Shown piece by piece: positions 2,334 to 33,181 of a stretch of DNA of 34,773 bases (position 1 is the stretch's first letter; every line of letters starts with the position of its first letter). The translations under genes were made by a program, and so were the position numbers. The notes beneath the pieces were generated by a model. The model saw only the letters and a program-made list of their open reading frames with translations. It was not told the DNA's origin and ran no database searches. The DNA comes from Chlamydiota bacterium (GTDB taxonomy: Bacteria > Actinomycetota > Thermoleophilia > Solirubrobacterales > Solirubrobacteraceae), in the NCBI GenBank assembly GCA_903970125.1, contig CAJCHW010000198.1:1-34773 (forward strand), in the 5' to 3' direction.

Positions 2334-4589
2334 TTACGCGGTTTGCAGGTCACGATGCGGGTGCGGCGTTCGGTCGAGGCCCGCCGCGGCGAGCTCTGCG
2401 GCGAGGTGCGGCGCAAAAGGATCGAGCCAGTAAACGAGCACCGCGAGGGCGTCGAGAATGGCCTCGTGGTCCTCGCGGCTGAGCTGTCCGCGCTTTGCGA
2501 CGGCGCGCTTCTCAAAGTCTCCGATGCGCTCAAAAAGTCGCATGAGATCGCGCACGGCAGCGTGCATCTCCAGCTGCGTGAGCGCATCCGCGATCCGGAC
2601 GGCGCCGTTCTCGCTCCAGCTTGCGAGCTTTCGCCTCAGGTGGTCGGTCATGAGCTTCGGCGGCTCGCCGGCGCTTGAGGGCAGATCGGCAGGGTCCACG
2701 GCCATGGTCCTCTGGGCGAAGATCCACAAGGCTCCGAGAAAGCGATGGCAATGGGCCACCGAGCTCTCGCTCCAGTTCAGCGAGCGCTGCGGCCGCGCGG
2801 CATAGAGCACCGCCAAGCGCACGGTGTCGGCGCCGACCTCCTCCACGAGCGCATCCGGCTCGACCACGTTGCCCAGGTGCTTGGACATCTTGCGCCCGTC
2901 GCGGATCACCATCTCGTGCATCAAGGCTCCTGCGAACGGCTCGCCGTCGGCGAGAAACGCCAGTGGCCCGATGTCCCGCAGCGCCTTCGTCGTGATCCGC
3001 TGGTCGAACATGAAGTTGCCCGAATCCGAGCCCGCCACCAGGCGCTCGGAAGGCAGCCATGAGCGCAGATCGGGCAGCGCCAAAATCTCCTCGAGCGGGC
3101 GCTCGCGCTCGGACGCGGGTACGCACGCCGGGATCCACAGCCAGAGCGCGTCAAAATGGCAGTCGAGCGTGTCGGTCTCGCGCCGTGCCGGACCATCACA
3201 GGCCGGGCAGGTGGTCTCGAAGAATGTCGGGTCTTGCGCGAGCGGGTTCCCTGGACCGGTGGGCTTCAGATCGACGGGCAAGATCACGGGGAGGTGCTCG
3301 ACCGGAACCGGGACGGTGCCGCAGGCCTCGCAGTAGACAATCGGGATCGGAGTGCCCCAGGCGCGCTGTCGCGAGACCGAGAAATCGCGGGCGCGGTAGC
3401 GCACCGCCGGGCGTGACCGCGCAGGCGTGGTCGCGCCGGAGTCCCCGCGGGCGGCGCGCTCGGTGTCGTGCGCCCCGAGCCCGAACCTACGCGCGATCAC
3501 CGCATCGGTGCGGTCGCGGGCCGGGATGCCCAGCACCGCGGTCGGGCCAAAGCGCGAGTCAACGAGTGGCGAAATGAGCACCGGCAAGGGCTCGCCGCCT
3601 GCGGGGGCGTGCACGGTGTGGCCGGAATCCAGCACGGGTACCGCCTCGGCCTCGCGCGCGGCGCGGTCCCAGCCCCCTTGGCGCATCTCCTCGAGCTCTG
3701 CTGCCAGCCCCGGCTTGGTAGTCCAGCGGCCAAGCTCGGCATGACGTGGGGACATCAACACGAAGCGGGCCTCGGCGAGTCCCTCGGCGTGTGGGGTGAA
3801 CGCGGTCAGCATCTCTCCGGAGTCATCGGTTCCGGACAGGTCACACTCGACACCGTCAAGACGTCCGAGGACCTCGCGCTGGGAGCCCAGGGCGACGTCG
3901 TCCCAGTGCTTTAGCTCTGCGGCGCGGCGGTCATTCTCCTCGACATACGCCGAGATGCGCAAAAACCACTCCGGGCGCTCGACCAGTTCGACGGGTCCGT
4001 GGCAGCGCCAGCAGGTTCCGTTCTCGACCTGGATCGTGGCAAGCGTGGTGTGACACGTGGGACACCAATCCACGGTGCCCGTGCCGCGGTATATGAGGCC
4101 GGCTTTCAGCAGCGTCAAAAACAGCCACTGCGACCACCGGTACATGTTCGGCTCCGAGCTCGTGAACGTGCGCTCCCAGCCAAAGGAGAAGCCAAGGCGA
4201 TTGAGCTGGCCGCTCATGACCTCGGCACAGCGGCGTACCCACTCCGTTGGGGTCAGGTCTCGGTCGCGGGCGCTCAGCTCCGCGGGCAAGCCGAAGGCGT
4301 CCCAGCCAAACGCAAACAGCACCGCGTCGCCGCGGGCGCGACAGAAGCGTGCGTAGGCGTCGCCGATGGCGTAGGAGCGCACATGCCCCATATGGATGTT
4401 GCCCGACGTGAAGGGGGCCGACGCCTTGATGTAGATCCAGCGGCTGTACTCGTCGCTTGAGCCATCGGTCGGAGGCGTAGGCGTGGCGAAGGCATCCTGC
4501 GCGCGCCAAACCGCTTGCCAGCGAGCCTCGATCGCCTGCGGGTCGTACTCCGGGAGGGCGGCTGATTTGGTGTCGTGGGTGGTGGCCAC
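2334..4589 (-). CDS. Divergent leucyl-tRNA synthetase-like class I aaRS, short and editing-impaired
   Basis: A 751-residue class I aminoacyl-tRNA synthetase related to LeuRS; bacterial LeuRS is usually 800-870 residues. The HIGH motif is HMGH (66-69) in a LeuRS-like context and the KMSKS motif is KMSKH (567-571). Zinc sites are C176/C179/C193/C196 and C420/C423/C461/C464. The CP1 editing region is present but altered: FTPHAEGLAEA (264-274) stands where LeuRS has the threonine-rich TTRPDTLFGA, and IPARDRTD (355-362) replaces the usual PAHDxRD. The anticodon-binding helices near 690-740 are followed directly by the end of the protein, so the LeuRS C-terminal domain (the VQVNGK region) is missing. 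The start is a GTG at 4589 without a clear Shine-Dalgarno sequence. It is probably the first gene of an operon with thrC. It is unlikely to be the housekeeping LeuRS. Its substrate is unknown. Confidence 0.8.
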   Translation of the reverse strand: MATTHDTKSAALPEYDPQAIEARWQAVWRAQDAFATPTPPTDGSSDEYSRWIYIKASAPFTSGNIHMGHVRSYAIGDAYARFCRARGDAVLFAFGWDAFGLPAELSARDRDLTPTEWVRRCAEVMSGQLNRLGFSFGWERTFTSSEPNMYRWSQWLFLTLLKAGLIYRGTGTVDWCPTCHTTLATIQVENGTCWRCHGPVELVERPEWFLRISAYVEENDRRAAELKHWDDVALGSQREVLGRLDGVECDLSGTDDSGEMLTAFTPHAEGLAEARFVLMSPRHAELGRWTTKPGLAAELEEMRQGGWDRAAREAEAVPVLDSGHTVHAPAGGEPLPVLISPLVDSRFGPTAVLGIPARDRTDAVIARRFGLGAHDTERAARGDSGATTPARSRPAVRYRARDFSVSRQRAWGTPIPIVYCEACGTVPVPVEHLPVILPVDLKPTGPGNPLAQDPTFFETTCPACDGPARRETDTLDCHFDALWLWIPACVPASERERPLEEILALPDLRSWLPSERLVAGSDSGNFMFDQRITTKALRDIGPLAFLADGEPFAGALMHEMVIRDGRKMSKHLGNVVEPDALVEEVGADTVRLAVLYAARPQRSLNWSESSVAHCHRFLGALWIFAQRTMAVDPADLPSSAGEPPKLMTDHLRRKLASWSENGAVRIADALTQLEMHAAVRDLMRLFERIGDFEKRAVAKRGQLSREDHEAILDALAVLVYWLDPFAPHLAAELAAAGLDRTPHPHRDLQTA

Positions 4590-31177: not shown

Positions 31178-31267
31178 GCGAGCCGGCTGACCACGCTTGC
31201 CCAACCCGGATCGCGACGGCAGGCTACTGCGCACGCGACTGTTAACATGGCGGTTGGCTTGCTTTAA

Positions 31268-31353
31268 CTCTCGGTGGGCTCACGGTCCCGGCTCAGACAC
31301 TCGGCCGGCAGCGCGATCGCACGACTGTCATCGCGCACATCCATCGAGAGGAG
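31268..31353 (+). ncRNA. Structured 5' leader A (three-stem, SD-occluding)
   Basis: A predicted cis-acting RNA just before the membrane protein gene at 31360. P1 pairs CTCTCGGTGG (31268-31277) with CCATCGAGAG (31341-31350). P2 pairs CCGGCT (31288-31293) with GGCCGG (31303-31308) around a 9-nt loop. P3 pairs GCGCGAT (31311-31317) with ATCGCGC (31330-31336). The Shine-Dalgarno AGGAG is 31349-31353, so the 3' strand of P1 covers its first bases. A second copy (leader B) at 32755-32841 keeps the same stems and conserved blocks while its linkers differ. I cannot match it to a known riboswitch class from memory. Confidence 0.6.
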
Positions 31354-31359
31354 CGCTCA

Positions 31360-32013
31360 ATGCGCCGCAGAGTCTTTGATGTCCTCACCAGTGCCATCGG
31401 GATGGGCCTTGTGGTTGTGCTTCTCGTCGCAGGGGGTCTGCTGATGTGGGGTTACAGCTACGACCACTCAAACGTACGCAACCAGCTGGCCGAGCAGCAG
31501 ATCTTCTTCCCACCCAAGGCCGCCTTCGCGACTGCCAAGCCTGGAACCGAGATCACCCCGGCGATGATCCCGTATCTCGAGAAGTACTCAGGACAGCAAC
31601 TGCTCACCGGCCCTCAAGCCGAGGCCTACGCCGACCACTTCATCGCTGAACACCTTGCGGAGATGCCGTACGGCGGGATCTACTCAAAGATCAGCACAGC
31701 GGCACGCGCCGAACCAAAGAACACGGCGCTGGCAGCGCTTGAGACCACCTCCTTTCAGGGAACCACGCTACGTGGCCTGCTGCTGGAGGCCTACGGCTTC
31801 TCGAAGATCGGCACGATCATGCTCTACGGCTCGATCGCGTCGTTCATCCTTGCAGTGTTGATGCTCGGGCTCGTCGGCCTTGGGTTCCGCCATGCACGGC
31901 GGACTCCTGCCGAGCAGGAGCTGCTGGTGCCCAAGCGCAGTCCCGCAGCAGCGAAGGGCACCAATGGCGGGCCCGCGCCGCAGGCGCCAGAGCGAGAGCT
32001 CATAAAAACATAG
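31360..32013 (+). CDS. Conserved actinobacterial two-helix membrane protein of unknown function
   Basis: A 217-residue membrane protein. Helix 1 is about residues 11-31 (AIGMGLVVVLLVAGGLLMWG) and helix 2 about 150-173 (IGTIMLYGSIASFILAVLML). Between them lies an extracytoplasmic domain with QLAEQQIFFPPKAAF, a GTEITPAMIPYLEKYSGQQL segment, TGPQAEAYADHFIAEHL and FQGTTLRGLLLEAYGF. I recognise this as a widespread actinobacterial family without assigned function. The C-terminal tail is cytoplasmic and Pro/Ala-rich. The ATG at 31360 follows AGGAG at 6-nt spacing. The unusual point is its structured leader, which could gate translation. It converges with the ANTAR gene across a strong hairpin. Confidence 0.82.
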   Translation: MRRRVFDVLTSAIGMGLVVVLLVAGGLLMWGYSYDHSNVRNQLAEQQIFFPPKAAFATAKPGTEITPAMIPYLEKYSGQQLLTGPQAEAYADHFIAEHLAEMPYGGIYSKISTAARAEPKNTALAALETTSFQGTTLRGLLLEAYGFSKIGTIMLYGSIASFILAVLMLGLVGLGFRHARRTPAEQELLVPKRSPAAAKGTNGGPAPQAPERELIKT

Positions 32014-32059
32014 GCGCATTCGCGCAGACAAGTGACATAAATGGAACGCAGCGCGCACG

Positions 32060-32090
32060 GGCGTCGAGCGCTTAGCGCTGAACCGACGCC
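32060..32090. terminator. Strong hairpin between convergent genes
   Basis: GGCGTCG (32060-32066) pairs with CGACGCC (32084-32090), and inside it AGCGC (32067-32071) pairs with GCGCT (32075-32079). The structure spans the stop codon of the ANTAR gene (32072-32074) and starts 46 nt after the membrane gene's stop. There is no T-tract, so it is a terminator-like structure serving both strands. Confidence 0.45.
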
Positions 32091-32671
32091 TGGCGCTCTC
32101 CGGGCAGTAGCCGGTGGCCGTCGACGACCGCCGTGGCGAGGTCGACGAGCTTGCGGTTGTCGACGCGGGATTGGTCGCGCATCATCTCAAACGCGGCCGC
32201 CTCGTCGATGCCGTGGCGCTCCATCAAGATCCCCTTTGCGCGCTCGATCAGTGCGCGCCGCCCAAATGCGCCCTTGAGATCCTGGTACTCGGCAAAGCGT
32301 CTGAGCACGATGTCGATTGCGCTCTGCCAGTCCTGCGTGTCGGCGTCGCTGATGTGGGCAAAGATGCCGCGTTTGGATGCCTCGTTGATGAAGTTGGGGT
32401 CGCGCGCGTGCAGCAGCACGATCACTGGGCAGGCCGCCTCGGAGACGATCTTGTCGATAAGCGCAAGTGCGTGCTCTGAACTGTCTCCGAGTCCCACGAG
32501 CGCGACGTCGGGGCGCTCTCTGGCAGTCGCCGGCCCTACGTCTGCGACGGCGATCTCCCGGGCAATCACCTCGTGGCCGAGACTTGCGACGATCGGAGCG
32601 ACGAGCGCCAAGCGGTCCTTACGCTCGTTGGCGATCAGGACACGCAGGTGTTTGGTCTCAAGGTTGCTCAT
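32072..32671 (-). CDS. ANTAR-domain RNA-binding regulator with pseudo-receiver
   Basis: A 199-residue regulator. The N-terminal part (about 8-125) has a response-regulator receiver fold, but the phosphorylatable Asp is missing: the strand reads PDVALVGLGD, placing G60 where Asp is expected. The C-terminal ANTAR domain (about 136-185; LIERAKGILMERHGIDEAAA, then VDNRKLVDLATAVV) is a three-helix RNA-binding module that in other systems binds dual-hexaloop hairpins to antiterminate transcription. The ATG at 32671 is preferred over the TTG directly before it. The gene sits between two structured leaders on the opposite strand, which makes them candidate targets by position only. Control is probably not by classical phosphorylation. 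Confidence 0.87.
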   Translation of the reverse strand: MSNLETKHLRVLIANERKDRLALVAPIVASLGHEVIAREIAVADVGPATARERPDVALVGLGDSSEHALALIDKIVSEAACPVIVLLHARDPNFINEASKRGIFAHISDADTQDWQSAIDIVLRRFAEYQDLKGAFGRRALIERAKGILMERHGIDEAAAFEMMRDQSRVDNRKLVDLATAVVDGHRLLPGERQASVQR

Positions 32672-32754
32672 CAAGCTTGCGCCAGCCGCGATCGCAACTA
32701 CACGCCCGATTGCGGCTGCACGCCAGTGTTAGGATAGTGCCGGCTCTCCCAAAA

Positions 32755-32841
32755 TCTCGGTGGGCTCGAATTTCCGGCTCCGACACTCGGCCGGCAGCAT
32801 GCGATCGCGGGATGGTCGCGGCTTACACCCATCGAGAGGAG
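32755..32841 (+). ncRNA. Structured 5' leader B (second copy of the same fold)
   Basis: P1 pairs TCTCGGTGGG (32755-32764) with CCCATCGAGA (32828-32837). P2 pairs CCGGCT (32774-32779) with GGCCGG (32789-32794). P3 pairs GCGATC (32801-32806) with GGTCGC (32814-32819). Shared with leader A are TCTCGGTGGGCTC, the P2 hairpin and its GACACTC loop, CAGC, GCGATCGC and CATCGAGAGGAGC. The linkers differ in both sequence and length. One P3 pair changes from U-A in A to U-G here. The Shine-Dalgarno AGGAG is 32837-32841, again at the P1 end. Confidence 0.6.
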
Positions 32842-32848
32842 CCCAGCG

Positions 32849-33181
32849 ATTAGTTCTTCACCGAAGCACTTCGTGCGCGTCGAGCAAAGGCCGCAACAGG
32901 GCGCCGGCTCCGAGACAGGGCGGCCGACGCCCAGACGATCCGTACAGCAGCCGGACCGCGACGCCGAGCGGCATCTCGTCGCAGTGGCTGGGAGCCTGCG
33001 ATCGGCAACCGAGTCGGCCGAGCGCGGCGACTACCGTGACGCGCTCGGGTGGCTTGCCGTCCTGGAGGCGGTGGGTGAGGAGCTGCCCACGGCCTATATC
33101 GCCAAGCGACAGCTTTGGCTGTCCGCGTTCGCGGACGAGGAACAGCAGTGCGGTGCCGATGGGCACGAGCAGTCGGCCTGA
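32849..33181 (+). CDS. Small soluble protein with apparent ATT start, downstream of leader B
   Basis: A protein of 110 residues if initiated at ATT 32849. The Shine-Dalgarno AGGAG (32837-32841) lies 7 nt before this ATT, mirroring the 6-nt spacing at leader A's gene. No ATG, GTG or TTG lies at that distance in any frame. The first conventional start in frame is GTG 32873, which is 31 nt from the Shine-Dalgarno and would give 102 residues. The N-terminal 40 residues are polar and probably disordered. The rest is helical and protein-like (AERHLVAVAGSLRSATESAE, then GDYRDALGWLAVLEAVGEEL and AKRQLWLSAFADEEQ). I recognise no named domain. It has no signal or membrane segment. It ends 4 bp from the convergent VOC gene's stop. 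Confidence 0.6.
   Translation: MSSSPKHFVRVEQRPQQGAGSETGRPTPRRSVQQPDRDAERHLVAVAGSLRSATESAERGDYRDALGWLAVLEAVGEELPTAYIAKRQLWLSAFADEEQQCGADGHEQSA

Follow-up and report, generated by a model that had tools for sequence, protein, structure and literature searches.

Target RNAs of ANTAR proteins known so far consist of tandem hairpins with hexaloops, in which the bases A1 and G4 are conserved and needed (PMC3369931, PMC8164766). In the dual hexaloop antiterminators of the EutV/eut, NasR/nasF and AmiR/amiE systems, the hairpins exclude an alternative fold that forms an intrinsic terminator (PMC3369931, PMC8934654), and in mycobacteria protein binding to ANTAR RNAs that overlap the ribosome binding site represses translation (PMC8164766). 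Here, we describe two structured leaders on a stretch of 34,773 nucleotides from the family Solirubrobacteraceae (contig CAJCHW010000198.1; the whole stretch is referred to as the window), which precede two unrelated genes and have the gene of an ANTAR regulator between them. The leaders belong to a tandem-hairpin RNA family whose members are likely to be ANTAR targets that would activate a regulon by releasing the Shine-Dalgarno (SD) sequence. A literature search, with subscription journals and preprints outside its reach, found no paper describing the element; an earlier description is possible, and as far as that search reached the family is previously undescribed.

Like the dual hexaloop antiterminators, the element has two small tandem hairpins with a short linker and matching loops, stands in the 5' leaders of several transcripts with an ANTAR gene adjacent, and has a predicted alternative fold that the hairpins would exclude. 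Its tandem stem-loops also fall within the linker range of ~2–25 nucleotides that helps to define those RNAs. However, its loops are 9–10 nucleotides long and follow the pattern YCARNNYUC instead of being A1/G4 hexaloops, its predicted alternative fold would hide the SD sequence instead of forming a terminator, and it carries an extra third hairpin. Because it fails the hexaloop and A1/G4 tests, the element is left outside the dual hexaloop RNA family as defined; it is probably an ANTAR target with a different loop code, in which the SD sequence takes the place of the terminator. A hidden canonical hexaloop was considered and rejected: loops of 10 nucleotides in the second hairpin often read ARCGAY, with A1 and G4 in place, but they lack a closing pair and form a minority.

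The ANTAR RNAs described at ribosome binding sites of mycobacteria and other Actinobacteria (PMC8164766) share with the window element the phylum, the position of the leader, targets in transport and metabolism, and translation as the likely level of control. They were, however, found with dual-hexaloop models and are reported to repress translation, whereas the window element has other loops and an SD sequence outside the hairpins. A text search of PMC8164766 found no mention of Thermoleophilia or of Solirubro- names.

A structured RNA family

The two leaders had been placed at 31268–31353 and 32755–32841 by a preliminary description that listed blocks common to both. Positions and blocks were both confirmed in the sequence, but the conserved unit starts ~11–12 nucleotides further upstream, at 31257 and 32743, with a hairpin that had been overlooked and is here called SL0. 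The hairpin SL1 corresponds to P2 of that description, and the third hairpin to its P3. The parts of the two copies are as follows.

31243–31248, plus strand: putative -10 element TAACAT of the copy 1 promoter, proposed from the sequence and from TAnnnT-like motifs in the same place in most family members
31257–31279, plus strand: SL0 of copy 1, GCUUGCU UUAACUCUC GGUGGGC, 7 of 7 pairs
31288–31308, plus strand: SL1 of copy 1 (P2), CCGGCU CAGACACUC GGCCGG
31311–31336, plus strand: third hairpin of copy 1 (P3)
31350–31353, plus strand: SD sequence GGAG of copy 1, its first G 10 nucleotides from the ATG at 31360
32730–32735, plus strand: putative -10 element TAGGAT of the copy 2 promoter, proposed from the sequence and from motif placement in the family
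32743–32765, plus strand: SL0 of copy 2, GCUCUCC CAAAAUCUC GGUGGGC, 6 of 7 pairs
32774–32794, plus strand: SL1 of copy 2 (P2), CCGGCU CCGACACUC GGCCGG
32800–32820, plus strand: third hairpin of copy 2 (P3)
32838–32841, plus strand: SD sequence GGAG of copy 2, inside GGAGCC, the full complement of GGCUCC in SL1

In the alignment, the two copies have a mean column identity of 87%. The fold of copy 1 beats 200 of 200 shuffles (z = -3.6), and that of copy 2 is not exceptional (z = -0.7); the predicted preference of copy 2 is an alternative fold in which GGGCUC pairs with GAGCCC flanking the SD sequence. Across the window no Rfam family scores above its threshold, and lowering the thresholds brings up nothing relevant; the loci of other family members are likewise without a match above the gathering score, so that a known class is not recognized.

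The similarity of the leaders is far beyond chance. A covariance model built from the two window copies (R1) matched locus L022 of genome G013 (same genus) with 35.8 bits and locus L023 of G071 (same family) with 31.6 bits; each of the two loci precedes a homologue of gene 2, the gene behind copy 2. Searching the order (232 genomes) with R1, together with inspection upstream of gene 2 homologues, added L116, L117, L120 and L126, behind which lie mutually unrelated genes: an ANTAR gene (after a short open reading frame), an epoxide hydrolase, an amino-acid permease and a short reading frame resembling the start of an alcohol dehydrogenase. The model R2, built from eight sequences, gave strong matches in many genomes (at E <= 1, up to 13 in G169 and 5 in G071), and a later model, R3, was used across the class (399 genomes). 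Together, R1–R3 yielded ~40 copies in Solirubrobacterales and related groups, 38 of which were covered by hairpin parsing. A third copy, which has diverged further, is present at G000:C137:12745-12852 in the source genome itself (2.66 Mb in 214 contigs, 87% complete).

Among the 38 parsed copies, the consensus order is SL0, a linker of ~8 nucleotides (5–12 in nearly all), SL1, the third hairpin (often GACC...GGUC) and the SD sequence GGAG, for which the family consensus is GGAGCC. The tandem hairpins lie ~40–50 nucleotides upstream of the SD sequence, which is outside both, and the start codon usually follows 8–14 nucleotides after its first G. The loop of SL0 has 9 nucleotides (YCARNNYUC) and that of SL1 9–10 (CCARCNYUC); the two are identical at 4.8 of 9 positions, compared with 3.0 in shuffles, none of 2000 being as good. 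As a -10-like motif similar to TAnnnT stands shortly upstream of SL0 in most members, SL0 is expected at the extreme 5' end of the mRNA.

Evidence for structure comes foremost from SL0. When its arms are exchanged between members, pairing becomes poorer (z = 7.4; none of 2000 exchanges as good). Its 5' arm was outside R2, the source of most copies, yet with the loop fixed at 9 nucleotides at least 6 of 7 pairs form in 26 of 28 members; displacing the arm by 1–4 nucleotides leaves no more than 5 of 28 that do so, a control that is somewhat generous because the register was selected by pairing. In the MAFFT alignment A7, the three helices together contain 25 double-change cells compared with 10.5 in shuffles (0 of 500 as good). 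SL0 is paired in 87% of the cells of A7, the same position showing GC, CG, UA and UG, whereas SL1 is paired in 98% and is nearly invariant, its changes falling mostly in the 3' arm (GCCGG to GUCGG). Compensatory changes are seen in SL0 and, in part, in the third hairpin. That the leaders form a real structured RNA family can be taken as virtually certain.

The three-helix junction of the preliminary description survives in part. Its P2 and P3 pairings are correct, and covariation, which it had proposed as a check, is found in SL0, which it had missed, and partly in P3, with P2 nearly invariant and none in P1. The 10-base-pair P1 stem is present in both window copies (helix scores 21 and 23) and overlaps the SD sequence, as had been claimed. 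However, it is strong only in these two copies and is not a family-wide feature: the members' own complementarity averages 11.8 compared with 11.5 for swapped strands (z = 1.1), and P1 has to be given up as a conserved regulatory stem. Because its 5' strand is the 3' arm of SL0, P1 and SL0 are mutually exclusive. P1 is best regarded as a possible local means by which the window copies hide the SD sequence.

Several side observations concern the reach of the family. At least nine copies are present in G169 (L208, L209, L210), seven of them inside ~10 kb of one contig, and several are followed only by open reading frames of 18–35 amino acids; these may be short leader peptides or decayed genes, or the RNAs may themselves be the products. 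Scanning genome contigs with the pattern GGCTCNGACACTCGGCC gave at least 80 matches, nearly all of them chance occurrences in coding DNA; the single genuine match among those listed was L080, on the already-known contig of G013, and the same scan of viral contigs gave no match. The weak class-level matches L284, L285 and L287 were rejected since they resemble coding DNA, and L232, L237, L238, L240 and L218 were discarded as chance matches.

Association with an ANTAR regulator

The regulator gene of the window starts 68 nucleotides from SL0 of copy 2.

32072–32674, minus strand: ANTAR regulator with a degenerate receiver and an ANTAR domain, divergent from copy 2, the proposed binder of both leaders

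A confident RNA match (R2, E <= 1e-5) was found in 16 genomes of the order; 19 genomes have a close orthologue of the regulator (at least 76% identity in the order search), and 14 genomes belong to both sets. The orthologue thus occurs in 14 of 16 RNA-positive genomes and in 5 of the 216 others (table 14/2/5/211), for which Fisher's p = 1e-16 is overstated, the genomes being phylogenetically related. The RNA lies 66–132 nucleotides from the start of a divergent ANTAR gene in 14 loci, those of G254 and G377 (below) among them; in L212 both lie on the same strand at a distance of 208 nucleotides, and in three other loci they are 0.5–1.0 kb apart. In the class-level search, R3 recovered the RNA independently in G254, G377 and, weakly, G430, three genomes of another family. 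Orthologues of 71–79% identity then came up in a protein search, located 66–100 nucleotides from the RNA in G254 and G377 and ~1 kb from it in G430.

The same genomes also have copies remote from the ANTAR gene, for example on contig 48 of G169 and at 1.27 Mb in G071, where the ANTAR gene is at 0.09 Mb, which fits the expectation for a regulon. The genes behind the copies are mutually unrelated and include AA_permease, EHN epoxide hydrolase, Aldedh, MMPL, MFS, STAS, DUF4386, zinc ribbons and small proteins. Co-occurrence and adjacency make it very likely that the leaders are targets of the neighbouring ANTAR regulator. Of the two options previously offered, a riboswitch or a protein-responsive element, this association with one ANTAR regulator speaks for the latter and disfavours the former, and the earlier suggestion that a shared cis-acting structured leader controls unrelated genes near the ribosome binding site is supported.

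The window protein matches the Pfam family ANTAR (PF03861) with 67.4 bits against a cut-off of 27.3 and shows significant profile similarity to Rv1626 (PDB 1s8n) and EutV (PDB 6wsh), with which it shares a receiver-like domain followed by an ANTAR domain. In EutV, the flipped-out loop base is reported to be contacted by Arg142, Lys149, Glu160 and Tyr164 (PMC8934654). In the profile alignment these map to R140 and K147, which are invariant, to E in most sequences and to F or Y, so that the residues contacting G4 in EutV are kept or conservatively replaced. The receiver differs: where Rv1626 reads RVLIAEDEA and IMDVKM, the window regulator has RVLIANERK and LVGLG, and the receiver chemistry has apparently been lost. 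The phospho-acceptor Asp is replaced by G (LVGLG) and the acidic pocket by ANER. As these replacements are invariant in the clade, phosphorylation is unlikely as an input, and the regulator likely responds to a non-phosphorylation signal; there are precedents for ANTAR proteins with a pseudo-receiver, AmiR being one (PMC3369931). An AlphaFold model from 6 sequences (mean predicted local distance difference test score 59.5) was too poor for a fold search. As a side observation, a distant ANTAR paralogue in G170 (51% identity) adjoins a tandem hairpin-like sequence with CGGCUCGAUCCCGCGGCCG (L245, ~3240–3400), which is possibly a diverged relative of the element.

A proposed switch at the Shine-Dalgarno sequence

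The reading of the leader as an SD switch rests on predicted pairings in which strands of the hairpins would alternatively cover the SD sequence. In ViennaRNA ensembles of 28 members, the mean probability of a free SD sequence is 0.13, its usual partner being the 5' strand of SL1, and rises to 0.33 when both hairpins are enforced. In 26 of 34 leaders, GGCUCC and GGAGCC can pair without a mismatch. The bases following GGAG are constrained as well: the first is a pyrimidine in 34/34 leaders compared with 60/113 other SD sites of the same loci, and the second is C in 28/34 compared with 33/113. Further, shuffling the hairpin part makes the SD sequence more accessible in the predictions for 25/34 leaders (Wilcoxon p = 8e-5).

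In the proposed mechanism, the SD sequence of the free mRNA would be paired. In most members GGAGCC would pair with GGCUCC in the 5' arm of SL1; in the window copies the SD sequence could also be closed by the 3' strand of SL0, that is, through P1. As either partner belongs to the tandem hairpins, the open and closed folds would be mutually exclusive. An ANTAR dimer holding SL0 and SL1 would free the SD sequence and turn translation on, a translation-level counterpart of the EutV antitermination model, and the leader-bearing genes would form the regulon of the regulator at 32072–32674. On the predicted pairings, activation by SD release is somewhat better favoured than not.

Weighing the alternatives

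A number of findings weigh against the reading of the leaders as ANTAR targets that activate by SD release. Besides the relatedness of the genomes, which inflates the significance of the co-occurrence, no close orthologue was found in G039 and G144, both with a confident RNA match; conversely, G078 and G012 hold the orthologue with no leader found, and G061 has only a remnant. Hairpins with A1/G4 hexaloops occur in 3 of 38 leaders against 4.8 expected by chance, with no tandem pair. The predicted gain in SD accessibility (0.13 to 0.33) is modest, the window copies show no opening when the hairpins are forced (0.00 to 0.03 and 0.36 to 0.24), and the SD sequence of copy 1 forms only 4 of 6 pairs with SL1. 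Given the modest in silico effect and the lack of opening in the window copies, the sign of control is the least certain step. An ANTAR dimer might instead hold the leader in a form that the ribosome cannot use and thereby repress translation, as reported for mycobacterial ANTAR RNAs overlapping the ribosome binding site (PMC8164766), and the failure of forced hairpins to free the SD sequences of the window copies in silico would agree with this. However, the tandem hairpins stand 40–50 nucleotides upstream of the SD sequence, which is not inside them, and the conserved partner of the SD sequence is a strand of SL1, so that hairpin formation should open it; repression is thus unlikely, although it is the alternative to be taken most seriously.

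The remaining explanations dispense with the ANTAR protein, with the RNA or with function altogether. A small-molecule riboswitch acting independently of the protein would suit transporter and enzyme genes that are headed by a structured leader with a paired SD sequence. Such a riboswitch is improbable in view of the co-occurrence and adjacency with one regulator and the repeated similar loops, which suit a protein dimer; moreover, the most conserved parts are simple hairpins and not a junction core, and the downstream genes have no evident metabolite in common. The conserved sequence could also be a DNA element, an operator or the divergent ANTAR promoter, given that the majority of copies are flanked by divergent genes and have promoter-like motifs a short way upstream. 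The compensatory changes in SL0 and the third hairpin, the constant spacing to SD sequence and start codon in copies remote from the ANTAR gene, the shared orientation of copy and ANTAR gene in L212 and the constrained bases after the SD sequence leave this explanation with very little probability. Slighter still is the chance that the window copies are a recent local duplication devoid of function: they are 1.5 kb apart and more similar in sequence to each other than to any other copy, and orthologues of gene 1 lack the leader, but copies are maintained in several families with covariation (which already contradicts this idea), SD sequence and spacing, and the third copy of the source genome precedes an MFS transporter.

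Genes behind the window leaders

The genes downstream of the two copies encode unrelated proteins, as had been noted before; neither product reaches the cut-off of any Pfam family.

31360–32013, plus strand: gene 1, a membrane protein of 217 amino acids, preceded by leader copy 1
32849–33181, plus strand: gene 2, a soluble protein of ~102–110 amino acids, preceded by leader copy 2

Orthologues of gene 1 in G020, G019 and G017 are without a leader. A small membrane protein loosely like that of gene 1 is encoded in G213 (L120, 1849–2406, minus strand) between the ANTAR gene and a leader, a hint that the neighbourhood of gene 1, ANTAR gene and leader may recur.

Homologues of gene 2 in G013 and G071 are, like gene 2, preceded by a leader copy. 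At the distance from the SD sequence where other copies have ATG, copy 2 has an ATT in frame with gene 2; translation starts either at this rare codon or at the GTG at 32873, or the start is degenerate (region 32849–32872). The protein contains a domain of ~60 amino acids (SLRWAxESADRGDYxEALGWI) without a Pfam family, which in related genomes (L018–L020, L134–L150) is also found inside much longer open frames, possibly as the terminal part of larger proteins. In L022 (G013, minus strand, ~1400–1510), the leader is followed by an open reading frame of 34 amino acids. Its stop codon and the probable ATG of the gene 2 homologue overlap as ATGA, which suggests translational coupling.

Implications

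Taken to its full extent, the proposal is that tandem 9-nucleotide YCARNNYUC loops are recognized by an ANTAR clade whose receiver is degenerate. By withdrawing the SL1 strand from the SD sequence, these regulators would activate the translation of a scattered regulon, made up of transporters and of enzymes with oxidative or detoxifying roles, in Solirubrobacterales and related bacteria; we regard the chances for and against this full version as evenly balanced. A regulator that keeps the contact residues in its ANTAR domain while its probable targets have a different loop would show that the ANTAR code is broader than the search models in use, so that the targets of many ANTAR proteins for which none are known may have been missed. 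The leaders would also represent a natural, compact SD-release switch with a defined regulon in little-studied bacteria.
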